This document shows, piece by piece, positions 56,797 through 64,000 of a stretch of 64,000 nt of DNA. A model generated the notes under the pieces. That model made no database searches. It was given only the letters and a program-made list of their open reading frames with translations, and was not told the DNA's origin. A program made the translations under genes and the position numbers. Position 1 is the stretch's first letter. Every line of letters starts with the position of its first letter. Source of the stretch: Albibacterium bauzanense (GTDB taxonomy: Bacteria; Bacteroidota; Bacteroidia; Sphingobacteriales; Sphingobacteriaceae). The stretch is taken from contig NZ_SMGO01000001.1 in the NCBI RefSeq assembly GCF_004339765.1, positions 124,001 to 188,000 of the forward strand. Reading direction: 5' to 3'.

Positions 56797-56820
56797 ATTG
56801 CAATAACAATTTATTGCAAT
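56797..56820. promoter_or_regulatory. 10-bp perfect palindrome at the expected transcription start
   Basis: ATTGCAATAA-CAAT-TTATTGCAAT, 8 bases after the -7 box of the YwqE-receptor operon. It may be an operator or a 5'-end hairpin of the mRNA. Confidence 0.55.
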
Positions 56821-56835
56821 ATTAGCAGTTAACAG

Positions 56836-57570
56836 ATGTTTTCGATATTCAATAAAAAAGAAAGTTTCCGTATAGGAGAGATCCTTCAGGTTGATATGCA
56901 TTCGCATATTCTTCCCGGGATTGATGATGGCGCAGCTGATGTGGAAACTTCCTTGCGTTTAATAGACGGATTAATAGCAATGGGTTATAAAAAACTGATT
57001 GCTACACCGCATATCATAAGTGATATCCACCCTAATACGCCAGAAACAATTGAGGCTGCCAAACAGTTATTGCAAACTGAGCTTGATAAAAAAGGTTATA
57101 CCATCCCTGTATCTTATGCCGCAGAATACATGTTGGATGAGAACTTCCTTCCATTACTTAAGGCAGGGGATTTATTAACCTTTGGAAATAAAATTATCTT
57201 AGTTGAAACCATGTTTTTGGATCTGCCACCAAATCTGGAAGAGATCCTTTTTCAATTGCAGACTCATGGTTATCAGCCATTATTAGCACATCCGGAACGT
57301 TACCATTATGTTGATAGAAATCTGACACGTTTAAGTCTCTTTCGAGATCGAAATTGTATGTTCCAATGCAATGCACTTTCGTTCACTGGCTATTATGGTA
57401 AAAGAGAGCAGGAAATTGCTTATCGTTTATTAGATGCTGGGTTAATTGATTTTATCGGTAGCGATATACACCACGATCGTCATTTAGAGCATTTGCAGCA
57501 TTTTACAGTTTCATCAAAAATAGCCAGACAATTAGAAAGCCTGAATTATAAGAACCTTGAATTACGTTAA
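56836..57570 (+). CDS. Tyrosine-protein phosphatase, YwqE/CpsB type (PHP domain)
   Basis: 244 residues. PHP-domain metal ligands: VDMHSHILPGIDDGA at the N-terminus, LIATPHIISDIHPN, then LLAHPERYHYV and GSDIHHDRHL. These match the CpsB/YwqE family, manganese-dependent phosphatases acting on tyrosine kinases of capsule synthesis. No kinase or capsule genes are beside it. Its end overlaps the 7TM receptor gene by 14 bp, so the two are probably co-translated and may act in one pathway (inference). Confidence 0.87.
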   Translation: MFSIFNKKESFRIGEILQVDMHSHILPGIDDGAADVETSLRLIDGLIAMGYKKLIATPHIISDIHPNTPETIEAAKQLLQTELDKKGYTIPVSYAAEYMLDENFLPLLKAGDLLTFGNKIILVETMFLDLPPNLEEILFQLQTHGYQPLLAHPERYHYVDRNLTRLSLFRDRNCMFQCNALSFTGYYGKREQEIAYRLLDAGLIDFIGSDIHHDRHLEHLQHFTVSSKIARQLESLNYKNLELR

Positions 57571-59431
57571 ATCCATAGCTCTTTACATTTTATTCCTTCT
57601 TCCGCTTGCAGCTAAAACGCAAGAGCCTGTGAAGATAGTGGATTCTATTGACCAGCATATTTTCTCTTATAAGGAAATCGGTGTATTGATGGATCCAGAT
57701 GAAGAATACTCATTTGATGCAATTAAAAGCGATGCTCTTCGTTCAAAGTTTCAACCCAGCGAAAGCAGTACTCCTCAAACCTTAGAGCTTAATACAACCT
57801 ACTGGTTTAAAATTCGTATCCAAAGACCGAACGATCTACAGAACAACTTTGTTCTTGAGTTCTTTGATCAAACAATTGACGAAATAACTGCCTATATTCC
57901 TTTAAAAGACGGGAGCTATCGTGTCATTAATTTGGGAGATCATAAGCCCTTTTCTGAACGTTTCTTCAAACACAAAAACTTTGAGATCCCCCTTGAATTT
58001 CAACACGATGCAAGCGATGGAATTTATTACTTTAAAGTAAAATCCTCTCAGATCGCAGATATCATCATTGTTTTAAGATCCGTAAAGTTCTTTGTTTCTT
58101 ATGCTTTAAGCGAGTATTTCTCATTCGGTATATTCTATGGAATGATCCTCGTTTTTAGTTTATACAATCTCATTCTGTTTATTGCTGTACGACAAAAGCA
58201 GTATCTTTTTTATGTATTGTATTTACTAAGTGTTAGTTTATATGAAATGAGCTCTGATGGTATTGCCTATCATTATCTCTGGCCAAATTCACCACAATGG
58301 AATCAATTAGCTTTTGCATTAACACTAATTTCAGCCAGCAGTTTTGTGCTTTTATTTACCCGGGCGCTGTTTAATTTCAAAGATCGTGCACCCTGGCTCG
58401 ATAAACTTATTCTCTACACACTCGTTATTCGGGCAGCTTTCTTCCTTTATAGTTTATTCTTTGATAGAAGCCTCTTTAATTATAAATTCATTGAGTTTGT
58501 TCCACTCAGTGTCGCTTTCTTTGCAGGTCTTTATATTTATTTTAGCGGCTACCGTGCAGCACGTTTCTTTGTAATTGGCTATGGGTTTGTTTTTATTGGC
58601 TTCATTTTCAAGCTGTTTATTATGCTCGGAATCTCAAGCCTTAATTTCGGGGTTATTAGTTATTATAGCTTAAGTTTCTGTTTCATACTTGAAATGATCT
58701 TCTTTTCATTAGCAATTGGTGATAACCTTCGAATATTAAAGAGAGAGCAAGAAAAAATGCAAAAGCAGGTTCTTAAACAAATGACCGAAAACGTAGCTCT
58801 AAAAGATATATTGAATAGAGAACTCAAGAGCGAAGTTAGAAAACGTAATCAGGAGTTAGAAGAGGCAAACATACTCTTACAAGAGCAGTCTGAAGAGATC
58901 TCCCGCATGAATGAACTTCTTCAAATCGATAATCAAGAACTGAAACACGACAAGCAGGAATTAATTACTAATGTGAAAAAGATCTCACGAGATCGGGCCT
59001 TGTCGGCAGAAGTTGATTTTGAAGAATTTAGTGCAGCTTACCCCAATGCAGATAATTGCTATGAATTCTTAGCCGAACTTAAATGGAAAGACGGTTATCA
59101 TTGTCGCAAATGTGCTAATGAGCATTATTTCAATGGGAATACACCCTTTAGCAGAAGATGTACTAAATGCGGTTATGATGAATCAGTAACTTCTTATACC
59201 ATATTTCATAATATGCGTATTCCGATCAATAAGGCTTTTTATATGATTTTCCTGGTGTATAGCACCAAAGGCAAGATATCTTCCCATAAGTTATCAGAGA
59301 TTGTAGCCATTCGTCAAAGCACTTGCTGGTCCTTTTCTAACCGAATCAAGAAAGTGATGGTAGAGAGGAAGGTTTTGAAATCGACTGATAAGCACGGATG
59401 GAGTCAGTTGGTTCTTGAAAACGATATTTAA
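57557..59431 (+). CDS. 7TM-DISM receptor with transposase-type zinc-ribbon output domain
   Basis: 625 codons from a TTG start (57557); no ATG exists before residue 44, and TGA at 57542 closes the frame. Order: signal peptide (VKSIALYILFLLPLAAKTQ), an extracellular 7TMR-DISMED2-like domain (about 30-180, TYWFKIRIQRP), seven membrane helices (about 185-385), a coiled coil (about 390-485), and a C-terminal domain with C516, C519, C535, C538 (CX2C-X15-CX2C) followed by TIFHNMRIPINKAFYMIFLVY and SSHKLSEIVAIRQSTCWSFSNRIKK. That end resembles the zinc-ribbon/helical N-part of IS1595/ISXO2 transposases, without their DDE catalytic domain. It is likely a membrane-bound DNA-binding regulator. The fusion is unusual. 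Confidence 0.8.
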   Translation: MNYVKSIALYILFLLPLAAKTQEPVKIVDSIDQHIFSYKEIGVLMDPDEEYSFDAIKSDALRSKFQPSESSTPQTLELNTTYWFKIRIQRPNDLQNNFVLEFFDQTIDEITAYIPLKDGSYRVINLGDHKPFSERFFKHKNFEIPLEFQHDASDGIYYFKVKSSQIADIIIVLRSVKFFVSYALSEYFSFGIFYGMILVFSLYNLILFIAVRQKQYLFYVLYLLSVSLYEMSSDGIAYHYLWPNSPQWNQLAFALTLISASSFVLLFTRALFNFKDRAPWLDKLILYTLVIRAAFFLYSLFFDRSLFNYKFIEFVPLSVAFFAGLYIYFSGYRAARFFVIGYGFVFIGFIFKLFIMLGISSLNFGVISYYSLSFCFILEMIFFSLAIGDNLRILKREQEKMQKQVLKQMTENVALKDILNRELKSEVRKRNQELEEANILLQEQSEEISRMNELLQIDNQELKHDKQELITNVKKISRDRALSAEVDFEEFSAAYPNADNCYEFLAELKWKDGYHCRKCANEHYFNGNTPFSRRCTKCGYDESVTSYTIFHNMRIPINKAFYMIFLVYSTKGKISSHKLSEIVAIRQSTCWSFSNRIKKVMVERKVLKSTDKHGWSQLVLENDI

Positions 59432-59495: not shown

Positions 59496-59556
59496 GTTTT
59501 TATTTATTTCAGAAACTTGTTTTTGGCTACAAAAACTCTTCTGAAATAAATAAAAC
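59496..59556. repeat. Long inverted repeat upstream of susC
   Basis: GTTTTTATTTATTTCAGAA (59496-59514) and TTCTGAAATAAATAAAAC (59539-59556) are complementary with one bulged T; an inner GTTTTT/AAAAAC pair continues the stem. Placed 64 bp after the receptor gene. T's are on the 5' arm on either strand, so it is not a typical terminator. Confidence 0.8.
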
Positions 59557-59727
59557 GAAACCGTGAATGAAGCGTATTAAAATCCCAATCCCTTTTTCCC
59601 TATTCTTTATTTAACGTCTTAATAATCAGTTAATAATGTCCGAATTATTCATGTTGCTGAACCGTATCATTTTCTATGTAACAAACTAATATACAGTACT
59701 TTACATAAAATTTATATTGCTAAATCC
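59557..59727. other. Non-coding part of the 416-base gap before susC
   Basis: The gap between the receptor gene and susC spans 59432-59847. Besides the inverted repeat and the susC promoter, I find no ORF or further strong structure in this AT-rich stretch. Confidence 0.5.
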
Positions 59728-59758
59728 TTGTTAAGGAAATAAAATTGAAATAACTTTG
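59728..59758 (+). promoter_or_regulatory. Promoter of the susC-susD pair
   Basis: TTG (59728-59730), 20-base spacer, TAACTTTG (exact TAnnTTTG), giving a leader of about 83 bases. The leader has no evident riboswitch. Confidence 0.7.
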
Positions 59759-59847: not shown

Positions 59848-62763
59848 ATGAAAAGAATCTTAACTTTACTAATGATCCTTTCCTGTTACGGATTTTCCAG
59901 CACGTATGCTCAGAACATCAGCATTACCGGAACCGTAAAAGATGGAACAGGACTCACCTTGCCCGGAGTTTCCGTACAAGTCAAAAATTCAACACAGGGA
60001 AGCGCCGCTGACGCCAACGGTAACTACAGCATTAGTGCTCCCGCAAATGCCACGCTTGTATTCTCTTTCATTGGTTTTAAAACATTGGAAGAGCCGGTAA
60101 ATAACAGGCAAACAATTAACGTTACACTTACCGAAGACAACACTACTTTAAATGATGTAATTGTTATCGGTTATGGTTCACAAGCTAAAAAAGATATTAC
60201 TACAGCAGTAACCTCTATTTCAGCAGATGAAATTCAAAATCAACCGGTAACTAACCCATTGCAAGCAATTCAAGGTAAGGCTGCAGGTGTTCAAATTACT
60301 TCTCAATCAGGTAAACCAGGTTCAGGAGTAGCAGTAAGTATTCGTGGTAATACATCTATAACAGCATCAAACAGTCCTTTATATGTTATTGATGGAATTA
60401 CTTCACGTGATGCAAGTTTCCTTAATCCAAACGATATAGAAACCATTACAGTTTTGAAAGATGCTTCAGCTGCAGCAATCTACGGCTCAAGCGGTGCCAA
60501 CGGAGTTATTTTAATAACCACTAAAAAAGGTAAATTAGCAGGCAGACCTCAAATCGCTCTGAATGCTTTTACAGGTATTTCTAACCTTTGGCAAAAACAA
60601 GATGTTTTAGATCGTGATCAGTATCTTGATTTAATGACCGAACTTGGCTACACAGATCTAGGGGATGAAAATAGAGATTGGCAAGATGAAACTTTCGGAA
60701 CAGGAGTTCAACAAAACTATCAATTGTCTGTATCCGGTGCTACTAACACAGGCGGTAACTACTACATTTCAGGTGGTTATTTACAAGACAAAGGAATTGT
60801 TGCTCCAGCAGTATTAAATCGTTATACTCTTAATTTTAACGGTTCCCAAAGTGCAACAGACTGGTTACGTTTTACTGCTAATTTAGCTGTTACACGTAGC
60901 AATTCAGTAGATGTAAGCGATAACGCTGGTGTTGCCCGTGGCGGTACCATTCTTTCTGCTTTAACTACTCCTCCAACTATTGGAATCTTTGAGGAAGACG
61001 GTATAAGATATACTCAAAATCCTTATAAAGGTGGTTGGGAAAACCCAATTGCCAATGCATTCGCCGCTGAAAATTCTACCAAAAACACACGCTTCTTAGG
61101 AGCATTCTCTGCAGAAGTTGACTTTACCAAAGATTTATCTTTCAAATCAAGCATCAGTATTAACAAATCCAAAAATGATTACGATTATTGGATTGATCCG
61201 TTCTCAACCAATTATGGAAGAACACAAGAAGGTGTTGCCCGTACCAATCATACCGATGATCAAGTATGGTTAAACGAAAACTTATTAAACTATAATAAGA
61301 ATTTTGGAGATCATGCCTTTACTGCTACAGCAGGTATGACTTTGCAAGAATCTGATTGGAAATATAGAAATACAGAAGTAACCCGCTTCTTGGGTGAAGA
61401 TGGCGAACTATTAGAAGAAGGTACATCAGTTGTTCCAACTTTGCCTCAACGCGCTCAATGGTCTAAACGTTCTTATTTAGCAAGAGTAACTTATAACTAC
61501 CTTGGTAAATACCTGTTAAGCTCTAACTTCAGAGCAGATGGTTCATCACGTTTTGCACCTGACCAACGTTATGGTTATTTCCCATCAGTTTCCGCCGGAT
61601 GGCGTATTTCAAGTGAAGATTTTATGTCAAATGCAGAAAATCTTGATGACTTAAAATTACGTGCCAGCTGGGGACAAGTCGGAAATGATGAAGGAATTGG
61701 TGATTACGCTTATTTAGCATTGTATAACTTAACCACACAAGGAAGTTATTCTTTTGCACAGTTAGCCAACCCTGATCTTACCTGGGAAAAAACTACACAA
61801 AGCAACTTAGGTTTAGACTTAACCATGTTCGATGGCCGCTTAGCCTTTACAGCAGATGCTTACATTAAGAAAACAGACAACCTATTGGTTAATGTACAAT
61901 TGCCACCATCTTCAGGTTTCCCTTCACAAGCTTTGAACGTAGGTTCAATGGAAAACAAGGGTTTTGAATTCTTATTAAGCACCCGTAATATCCAACGCGA
62001 TAAATTTACATGGAGCTCAGACATTAACTTAAGTATCAATAAAAACAAGGTAACCAGTTTAGGAAGCAGTACAGAATCATTAGATTTCGGCGGAATTTAC
62101 GAACGTACTTCTGTTATTAAAATTGAACCAGGTCGTCCGTTAGGATCCTTCTACGGTTATGTTTTCGAAGGTGTTAATCCTGAAACAGGTGATGCAGTTT
62201 ATAAAGATATCGACGGTGTTGATGGAATTACTCCAGATGATCGTACTTATATCGGTTCTGCCCAACCAAAATTCACTTATGGATTCAACAACACATTAAC
62301 TTACAACAACTGGGGATTATCTTTATTCTTCCAGGGTGTACAAGGAAATGATATGTTCAATGCTTCACGCATTGATTTAGAAAGCATGAACGATTCAAAA
62401 AATCAATCTTCAGCAGTATTAGACCGTTGGAAAAAACCAGGTGATATAACCAATATTCCAGGAGCTAAACTTAGCAATACAGACAACACGCTTACAAGCA
62501 GTCGTTTTGTGGAAAATGGTTCTTACTTGCGTCTTAAAACAGCAACCCTGTCTTATAATTTCGGAGATTCATTCTTAGCTAAAACAAAACTTAGCAAGTT
62601 TATGGTGTATGCCACCGGATACAATTTATTAACAGTTACAAACTATACAGGTTTTGATCCGGAAGTTAACCAGTACGGTGCAAACGGTCCTTCTATGGGT
62701 GTAGATTATGGAACTTATCCACAGTCGCGTACCTTCATGATTGGTATTAATGTTGGATTTTAA
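59848..62763 (+). CDS. SusC/RagA-family TonB-dependent transporter
   Basis: 971 residues. Signal peptide (LTLLMILSCYGFSSTYA), an N-terminal carboxypeptidase-D-like domain (VKDGTGLTLPGVSVQVKN to about 95), the TonB box region with VIGYGSQAKKDITTAVTSI, a plug domain (SGKPGSGVAVSIRGNTSI, ASAAAIYGSSGANGVILI) and a C-terminal barrel ending GINVGF. It imports glycan or peptide fragments with SusD as lid. It is immediately followed by a susD-like gene (11 bp) and preceded by a receptor that may regulate it. Substrate not predictable. Confidence 0.96.
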   Translation: MKRILTLLMILSCYGFSSTYAQNISITGTVKDGTGLTLPGVSVQVKNSTQGSAADANGNYSISAPANATLVFSFIGFKTLEEPVNNRQTINVTLTEDNTTLNDVIVIGYGSQAKKDITTAVTSISADEIQNQPVTNPLQAIQGKAAGVQITSQSGKPGSGVAVSIRGNTSITASNSPLYVIDGITSRDASFLNPNDIETITVLKDASAAAIYGSSGANGVILITTKKGKLAGRPQIALNAFTGISNLWQKQDVLDRDQYLDLMTELGYTDLGDENRDWQDETFGTGVQQNYQLSVSGATNTGGNYYISGGYLQDKGIVAPAVLNRYTLNFNGSQSATDWLRFTANLAVTRSNSVDVSDNAGVARGGTILSALTTPPTIGIFEEDGIRYTQNPYKGGWENPIANAFAAENSTKNTRFLGAFSAEVDFTKDLSFKSSISINKSKNDYDYWIDPFSTNYGRTQEGVARTNHTDDQVWLNENLLNYNKNFGDHAFTATAGMTLQESDWKYRNTEVTRFLGEDGELLEEGTSVVPTLPQRAQWSKRSYLARVTYNYLGKYLLSSNFRADGSSRFAPDQRYGYFPSVSAGWRISSEDFMSNAENLDDLKLRASWGQVGNDEGIGDYAYLALYNLTTQGSYSFAQLANPDLTWEKTTQSNLGLDLTMFDGRLAFTADAYIKKTDNLLVNVQLPPSSGFPSQALNVGSMENKGFEFLLSTRNIQRDKFTWSSDINLSINKNKVTSLGSSTESLDFGGIYERTSVIKIEPGRPLGSFYGYVFEGVNPETGDAVYKDIDGVDGITPDDRTYIGSAQPKFTYGFNNTLTYNNWGLSLFFQGVQGNDMFNASRIDLESMNDSKNQSSAVLDRWKKPGDITNIPGAKLSNTDNTLTSSRFVENGSYLRLKTATLSYNFGDSFLAKTKLSKFMVYATGYNLLTVTNYTGFDPEVNQYGANGPSMGVDYGTYPQSRTFMIGINVGF

Positions 62764-62774
62764 ATCTTAAGAAA

Positions 62775-64000
62775 ATGAAAATTAAATTAAATAATTATAT
62801 AGGAATGGCGGCAGTGCTTTTATTAAGCTTGCAGGCCTGTAAAAAGGATTTTCTCGATAAACAACCCATTACACAAGTAACTCCTGATAAGGCTTTTTCA
62901 GATGCAGAGGCAGCTGAAAAGTTAATCCAAGGTGTGTATGACGGTATGTATATAGATTATTTTATCTGGGATTATATGACCAATGGCGATGTTACATCTG
63001 ATAATGCTTATGCAGGTGGTGATAACTCAGCCAACTTTCAAATAAACGATTTTACCACAAACTCTACCAATGGTAACCTCGGACGTGACTGGTCAGGTTT
63101 ATATACTACCATTAAAAATGCTAACCTGGTACTTGATAACGTGCCTAATATTGAAGATCCGGCATTGGACGAAGGTAATCGCCGTAATCAAATTTTAGCA
63201 GAAGCAAGAGCTATCAGAGCTTACAGTTACTTTCATTTGGTTCGTTTGTGGGGGCCAGTTCCACTTGTTGTAAAGGTGCCTGCTAATATCAATGAAATGC
63301 AGCCAGCAAGAGCATCGGTTGATGAAGTATATGCACAAATCATTGAAGATCTTGATTTTGCAGTTGCCAATGCCCGTACCTCTGCACCTAATAAAGGCTT
63401 TATTACACAAGGTGTTGCTCATGCAATTTTAGCACAAGTATATGCTGCATTACCAACCCCTAACTGGGCTAAAGTTTTAGAAGAAACCAATGCAACTATA
63501 GCTAGCGGATATTCTTTATTCGGAAGCTATGATGGATTATTTCAAATGGCAAATGAGAACAACTCTGAGTCTATCTGGGAAATGCAATACGATGGATGGA
63601 GTGGTGCTCATGGAAACTGGATGCCTAGCGTTATTGTTGGTAGCGGTTGGAAAAAATTCAACACGCCTTCCGTAGACCTGGTAAAAGCTTTTGATAGTGA
63701 GGGCGATGATATTCGTAAAAACTCGTCTATCAAATTTATAGATGCCAGTACAGAAGCATGGTCAGATTCTTATTGGTCAAAGGATAGCTATCCATTTATC
63801 AATAAATACCGTTATGACGATAAAAACAATGCTTATTTTATTCGTTTAGCAGAAATTATCCTTCTAAAAGCTGAAGCTCTAAACGAGCTAAGTGCTACCG
63901 GATGGTTACAAGCAAAACCATTGGTTGATCAAATCCGTGGCCGTGTAAATTTATTAGGAACTACTGCTATTACTCAAGCAAGCATGCGCGCTGCTATTTT
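62775..64000 (+). CDS. SusD/RagB-family lipoprotein (3' partial)
   Basis: The frame starts at ATG 62775 and is open to the right edge; 408 codons are visible, so the C-terminus is missing. Lipobox LLSLQACKKD marks surface anchoring. The start DFLDKQPITQVTP, the ILAEARAIRAYSYFHLVRLWGPVPLV helix region and FIRLAEIILLKAEALNEL are SusD-typical. It is the glycan- or peptide-binding lid of the SusC pore encoded just upstream. No glycosidase is visible before the window ends. Confidence 0.95.
   Translation, partial: MKIKLNNYIGMAAVLLLSLQACKKDFLDKQPITQVTPDKAFSDAEAAEKLIQGVYDGMYIDYFIWDYMTNGDVTSDNAYAGGDNSANFQINDFTTNSTNGNLGRDWSGLYTTIKNANLVLDNVPNIEDPALDEGNRRNQILAEARAIRAYSYFHLVRLWGPVPLVVKVPANINEMQPARASVDEVYAQIIEDLDFAVANARTSAPNKGFITQGVAHAILAQVYAALPTPNWAKVLEETNATIASGYSLFGSYDGLFQMANENNSESIWEMQYDGWSGAHGNWMPSVIVGSGWKKFNTPSVDLVKAFDSEGDDIRKNSSIKFIDASTEAWSDSYWSKDSYPFINKYRYDDKNNAYFIRLAEIILLKAEALNELSATGWLQAKPLVDQIRGRVNLLGTTAITQASMRAAI

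Follow-up and report, generated by a model that had tools for sequence, protein, structure and literature searches.

A seven-helix membrane receptor with a transposase-type DNA-binding end as the very probable regulator of beta-glucan loci in Bacteroidota

A membrane receptor of soil-type Bacteroidota, encoded in the window (the whole stretch of 64,000 nucleotides of Albibacterium bauzanense DNA analysed here), very probably controls the neighbouring beta-glucan genes through a conserved pair of DNA sites, and would do so by means of a transposase-derived module. The reading that we prefer, at a probability of roughly 0.8, is that the receptor, as a single membrane-bound protein, regulates the transcription of a beta-glucan utilisation locus, activating it via the paired sites. 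We begin by considering the receptor itself, the 5' end of whose ORF overlaps the end of a CpsB/YwqE-like ORF by 14 nt:

57557..59431, + strand: receptor gene, ORF of 624 aa with a TTG start and homologues in other genomes
57557..57619, + strand: N-terminal signal peptide, residues about 1-21 (from the sequence; AlphaFold2 helix 2-18)
57674..58075, + strand: 7TMR-DISMED2 periplasmic sensor domain, residues 40-173 (Pfam, 9.1e-28; AlphaFold2 beta domain)
58112..58723, + strand: 7TMR-DISM_7TM seven-helix membrane domain, residues 186-389 (Pfam, 1.2e-41; seven helices in AlphaFold2)
58724..58999, + strand: coiled coil, residues 390-481 (AlphaFold2 helices 366-448 and 453-481)
59048..59176, + strand: IS1595-type zinc ribbon, residues 498-540 (Pfam PF12760, Zn_ribbon_IS1595; cysteines invariant)
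59102, 59111, 59159 and 59168, + strand: codons of the zinc-ribbon cysteines C516, C519, C535 and C538
59225..59365, + strand: helix-turn-helix (HTH), residues 557-603 (NCBIfam transpos_IS1595 match; AlphaFold2 helices; weak HTH-type fold matches)

The matches to 7TMR-DISMED2, 7TMR-DISM_7TM and Zn_ribbon_IS1595 are each over the curated Pfam cut-off, the last with 1e-6 and 28.8 bits against a cut-off of 25.4. In the full-length AlphaFold2 model (pLDDT 85.7), an N-terminal helix and a beta domain are seen together with seven long helices, the last of which continues as a coil, and a C-terminal globule. An earlier note on this DNA, made from the letters, had read the protein as a signal peptide, an extracellular beta domain, seven helices, a coiled coil and a four-cysteine zinc ribbon of the IS1595 type without the DDE domain, and Pfam and AlphaFold2 bear out these parts, including the profile matches of sensor and ribbon that it had proposed to look for. 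The 7TMR-DISMED2 domain is probably the glycan-sensing part, and the coiled coil, to judge from the model, probably a dimer and signalling helix.

Residues 554-605 match positions 3-55 of the 215 positions of transpos_IS1595 (NCBIfam; 1e-5, under the model cut-off), and because the match is confined to the first 55 of these positions, the receptor has the ribbon and the HTH but lacks the catalytic part. Consistent with this, the Pfam search gives no match to the DDE domain (PF12762) in the receptor, and the ORF stops about 20 aa past the HTH, while most transposases run about 165-205 aa further. The same search finds none of the histidine kinase, receiver and AraC domains of a hybrid two-component system (HTCS). 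When the C-terminal domain is modelled alone (pLDDT 85.3, pTM 0.77), its recognition helix is probably formed by residues 587-603 with the motif RQSTCW. A sequence search of solved structures gives no significant match, Foldseek with the C-terminal model gives no E below 0.001 and only weak zinc-ribbon and HTH look-alikes, and VIA-align gives a Z of about 5 to the HTHs of homeodomain, TrpR and Lrp proteins, which is too weak for family proof.

The next question is "does the same join of sensor and zinc ribbon exist in other genomes?" Within the same family, four other genera have full-length relatives at 47-52% identity, and another family has them at 39%. Named genomes, when scanned, yield 80 full-length loci (Pedobacter, Mucilaginibacter, Chitinophaga, Dyadobacter, Siphonobacter, Olivibacter and others). 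For the family to which the window genome belongs, 151 genomes were surveyed, and 41 of them contain the fusion, counted as hits with an ORF above 600 aa. Since the identical join recurs in both sets, the fusion is not an assembly artefact, and the frameshift or assembly join at 58950-59050 that the earlier note had named as its own possible undoing is ruled out. The cysteines C516, C519, C535 and C538 are retained without exception in two alignments of full-length fusions, one of 6 and one of 41. The tail (SRRCxKCGYEES...RIPINKAFYMIFL...KISSHKLSE...RQSTCW) is strongly conserved, and the zinc-ribbon end belongs to the best conserved parts of the receptor across several Bacteroidota families. 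Receptor genes also occur as tandem pairs (G535:C12, G570:C127 and G578:C150), one of the G535 ORFs being 1101 aa long. One receptor from a contig labelled Beijerinckiaceae (L084) falls among Chitinophagaceae in the tree and probably comes from a mislabelled metagenome bin.

We turn our attention to the genes that follow the receptor:

59848..62763, + strand: susC-like transporter, the probable target gene (TIGR04056, over cut-off)
62775..63998, + strand: susD-like lipoprotein, cut by the window end (its true end in the genome is at window coordinate 64187)
64197-65636, beyond the window end: GH30 enzyme after susD, matching the model of the endo-1,6-beta-glucanase BT3312 (1e-123, under the model cut-off)

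The order receptor, susC, susD, GH30 of the window genome, in which 26 full susC genes are found in 3.08 Mb, is widely kept. In 71 of 97 loci, among which a few are the same species from two collections (L070, L153), susC is the next same-strand gene after the receptor, usually followed by susD and then by GH30 or GH3. The receptor of the remaining loci lies mostly beside GH30, GH16, GH5, GH3 or GH2, its neighbours in Mucilaginibacter being GH30, GH16, GH5 and GH3 genes. In loci of the Mucilaginibacter type, a multihaem cytochrome-like gene (L101 3279-4532 and relatives) is found repeatedly next to the receptor and GH5. The beta-1,6-glucan locus BT3309-3314 of B. thetaiotaomicron shows the same order, with the SusR-type regulator BT3309 in the place of the receptor, then a SusCD pair, GH30_3 and GH3 (PMC5481569). 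The likely substrate class is a beta-glucan, probably fungal or algal cell-wall material. The suggestion of nutrient sensing that the earlier note drew from the neighbours thus stands for the conserved susC-susD-GH30 side; the CpsB/YwqE gene, on which it also leaned, is not conserved at other receptor loci, is therefore uninformative on receptor function and was rejected as a functional partner.

The interval between the receptor and susC contains the following elements:

59499..59556, no strand assigned: inverted repeat after the receptor gene (the palindrome at 59496), seen in the sequence and not a conserved site
59563..59580, + strand: putative operator site 1, GTGAATGAAGCGTATTAA, second best match in the 64-kb window to a position weight matrix (PWM)
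59653..59670, + strand: putative operator site 2, GTTGCTGAACCGTATCAT, best PWM match in the window, 90 bp after site 1
59728..59758, + strand: promoter-like sequence of Bacteroidota type, TTGT-N19-TAACTTTG, before susC

The promoter-like sequence is called by the general Bacteroidota promoter consensus. The PWM was built without the window's own sites, and all positions on both strands were ranked. In receptor-susC intervals the motif GGTATTAAAGCGTATCA occurs as two copies in the same orientation, i.e., as direct repeats. Scanning both strands of the 97 loci for two cores 80-100 bp apart, we find 69 pairs, all in the sense orientation, with spacings of 86-94 bp; they lie upstream of susC (57), GH30 (10), GH3 (1) and GH2 (1). 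Pairs are present in 56 of 65 real main-type intervals and in none of 100 rounds of shuffled intervals, and 9 of the 65 are without a pair under the regular expression used. The motif was first recognised in some of the data that were later counted, so that the independent evidence consists of the GG of its left half (96-100%, though not included in the search pattern), the trans cases, the loci of the GH30 type and the genome survey described below. A third copy, GCGTATCA, is seen at about 59811 of the window, 37 bp before the susC start codon and downstream of the promoter-like sequence. The earlier note had offered the palindromes at 56797 and 59496 as binding sites; these were dropped once the direct repeat at 59563 and 59653 was found to be the conserved element; that at 56797 is discounted because it stands before the CpsB-like gene, a non-conserved neighbour.

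On these sequence grounds the GGTATTAAAGCGTATCA pair is the probable operator of the receptor. Because the sign of regulation is not readable from sequence, the receptor might bind the sites and yet mainly repress, or tether the locus to the membrane and release it on ligand. We consider this unlikely, since both sites precede the promoter-like sequence, the distance from the end of site 2 to the TTG at 59728 being about 58 bp, and this is the usual position of an activator. Moreover, the analogue SusR is thought to activate for starch.

The occurrence of the paired motif is strictly tied to promoters of glucan loci and to a receptor being present. A search for strict pairs in the 151 genomes gives 19 matches in 19 genomes (reversed control, 1): 18 of the 41 receptor genomes have a pair against 1 of the 110 without receptor (Fisher 3.5e-11, a value inflated by the relatedness of the genomes), so that 18 of the 19 strict-pair genomes carry the receptor. 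The sole pair in a receptor-less genome (G639, L261) is not upstream of a recognisable glucan gene. The 23 receptor genomes without a strict pair include the window's own, because its sites are degenerate, neither beginning with GGT. Pairs are also found away from the receptor gene: before GH30 on contigs other than the receptor's (G629, G582), before a susC-susD-GH16 operon 20 kb from the receptor gene (G529), and beside susC, on the susC side of an insertion that separates the receptor from susC (G562). That insertion (L260, 2905-4352) has two ORFs and is mobile-element-like. Pairs in such positions fit an action of the receptor in trans.

The receptor family itself provides natural controls. 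One relative (G002) has the same sensor and similar neighbours, but its C-terminal HTH is of the LuxR type (PF00196, 9e-5, narrowly under the cut-off), and the motif is not found at its locus. Receptors of this LuxR type (L008/L151 from G002, and L145), at least one of them beside susC-susD-GH16-GH30, represent a natural output swap. The pair before susC is absent for five further non-main-type receptors (L150, L155, L158, L159, L162), and the full motif is not found for receptors of the family f15 with an NTVW- or NTIW-type recognition helix (L214-L235). RQSTCW paralogues in the same f15 genomes have two sites each, with spacings of 78 and 124 bp. The f15-type susC intervals keep only the left half, TTAAAGCG, found with one mismatch or none in 16 of 21 (3.1 in shuffles), a correlation that fits a changed specificity of the recognition helix.

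The paired sites could instead belong to another transcription factor that travels with the receptor, the zinc-ribbon end having a different role such as protein contacts. Binding by the receptor is what we infer from co-occurrence, and some receptor genomes are without strict pairs, which leaves such a factor some room. However, the pairs, including those at loci remote from the gene, come with the receptor in 18 of 19 genomes, and the pair is missing where the receptor has a different recognition helix or a LuxR end. No other regulator gene recurs beside the receptor loci when these are compared across genera, an upstream response regulator and kinase being confined to one Pedobacter group, and we regard a co-travelling factor as quite improbable. 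As it follows the receptor gene in most loci, the motif might also be thought to act within the receptor transcript, as an RNA element or as a signal at the 3' end. This is hardly credible, as pairs before GH30 or susC on other contigs or past intervening genes or an insertion (L109; G629, G582, G529, G562) exclude it.

Where does the output domain come from? In a tree of the zinc-ribbon/HTH region, a branch (100/99) separates 72 fusion domains from 17 transposase domains. This fits a single recruitment, for a tree that is unrooted and short (141 columns). The window's own domain is outside the 72 rows and is 58-64% identical to four that are in the tree (G003, G005, G016, G020). The nearest transposases have RQKTCW where the main fusion type has RQSTCW, and in three of three tested DDE_Tnp_IS1595 follows the shared part, with one match below cut-off. 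In the window genome the receptor is the only IS1595-type zinc-ribbon protein over cut-off, and its gene has a conserved operon context. A divergent set of ten IS1595-type genes occurs in G362 (L163, L166-L173), where clear and consistent terminal repeats were not found. The profiles, the clade and the candidate operator support the central proposal of the earlier note, a transposase DNA-binding end serving as receptor output, with direct binding predicted from sequence. That the zinc-ribbon end is a functionless vestige of an insertion, as a transposase fragment without DDE might suggest, is practically negligible given its good conservation across several Bacteroidota families, its four invariant cysteines and its single old clade.

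For the sites, a PWM scan finds no strong match near the ends of the nearest IS1595 transposons; the terminal repeats of these elements are not clearly definable, and on this result a transposon-derived operator was set aside. A tentative and rather doubtful reading is that an end-reading module was captured whole, once, by the receptor and has gained new specificities since, and that the operator pair may stem from transposon ends. The main lineage would then have retained a recognition helix like that of the transposases (RQSTCW against RQKTCW) and read GGTATTAAAGCGTATCA, and the NTVW/NTIW lineage would have changed the right half of the site and kept the left.

According to the activator reading that we prefer, a glucan fragment, presumably a beta-1,6- or beta-1,3-glucan oligosaccharide, would bind the periplasmic 7TMR-DISMED2 domain, and the signal would travel through the seven helices and on along the coiled coil. 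In the cytoplasm, the zinc ribbon and HTH, of IS1595-transposase descent, would then bind, probably as a dimer, two GGTATTAAAGCGTATCA direct repeats that lie ahead of the susC (or GH30) promoter at a spacing of about 91 bp, and this promoter would be activated.

This arrangement resembles that of the SusR-type regulators of polysaccharide utilisation loci (SusR, BT3309/SusR3), a likeness that rests on layout, architecture description and site spacing. Both are membrane proteins with a periplasmic sensor and a cytoplasmic DNA-binding end, both are encoded beside susC-susD and glycosidases (as in the layout of BT3309-3314), and both have long-spaced direct repeats, 86-94 bp apart here and predicted at 67 or 77 bp for SusR-like sites (PMC3878776). 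SusR, however, is described with a C-terminal HTH unlike known DNA-binding domains, whereas the receptor has an IS1595 zinc ribbon and HTH. With the 7TMR-DISM receptors it shares 7TMR-DISMED2 and 7TMR-DISM_7TM over cut-off, and differs in having a transposase-derived DNA-binding module in place of a kinase, cyclase, GGDEF or phosphatase output. Such enzymes are the usual outputs, as the earlier note held, but not the only ones: the LuxR-type relative has a DNA-binding output, and a ChiS-family DNA-binding domain on a 7TMR-DISM protein is reported from Proteobacteria (PMC8092284), which is a precedent and, by its description, a separate domain from that of the receptor. The IS1595/ISXO2 transposases have the same four-cysteine ribbon followed by an HTH, with the recognition-helix motif RQxTCW common to the receptor and the nearest transposases, whereas the receptor is without DDE, fused to a sensor, present as a single genomic copy and conserved in operon position. 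The new element is that the DNA-binding domain has its origin in a transposase; the output and the operator are undescribed in the literature that we found, in which nothing connects an IS1595 zinc ribbon to 7TMR-DISM or 7TM, in a search mostly outside subscription journals.

How regulators in the membrane control polysaccharide loci is poorly understood, and many of them have no known operator. A conserved family whose probable operator, target operons and likely class of substrate are in hand makes one-protein transmembrane signalling from ligand to promoter directly testable, with the natural output swaps and the two specificity types as built-in controls. If binding is confirmed, bacteria would offer here a clear example of a receptor that has taken its output from the DNA-binding domain of a transposase.
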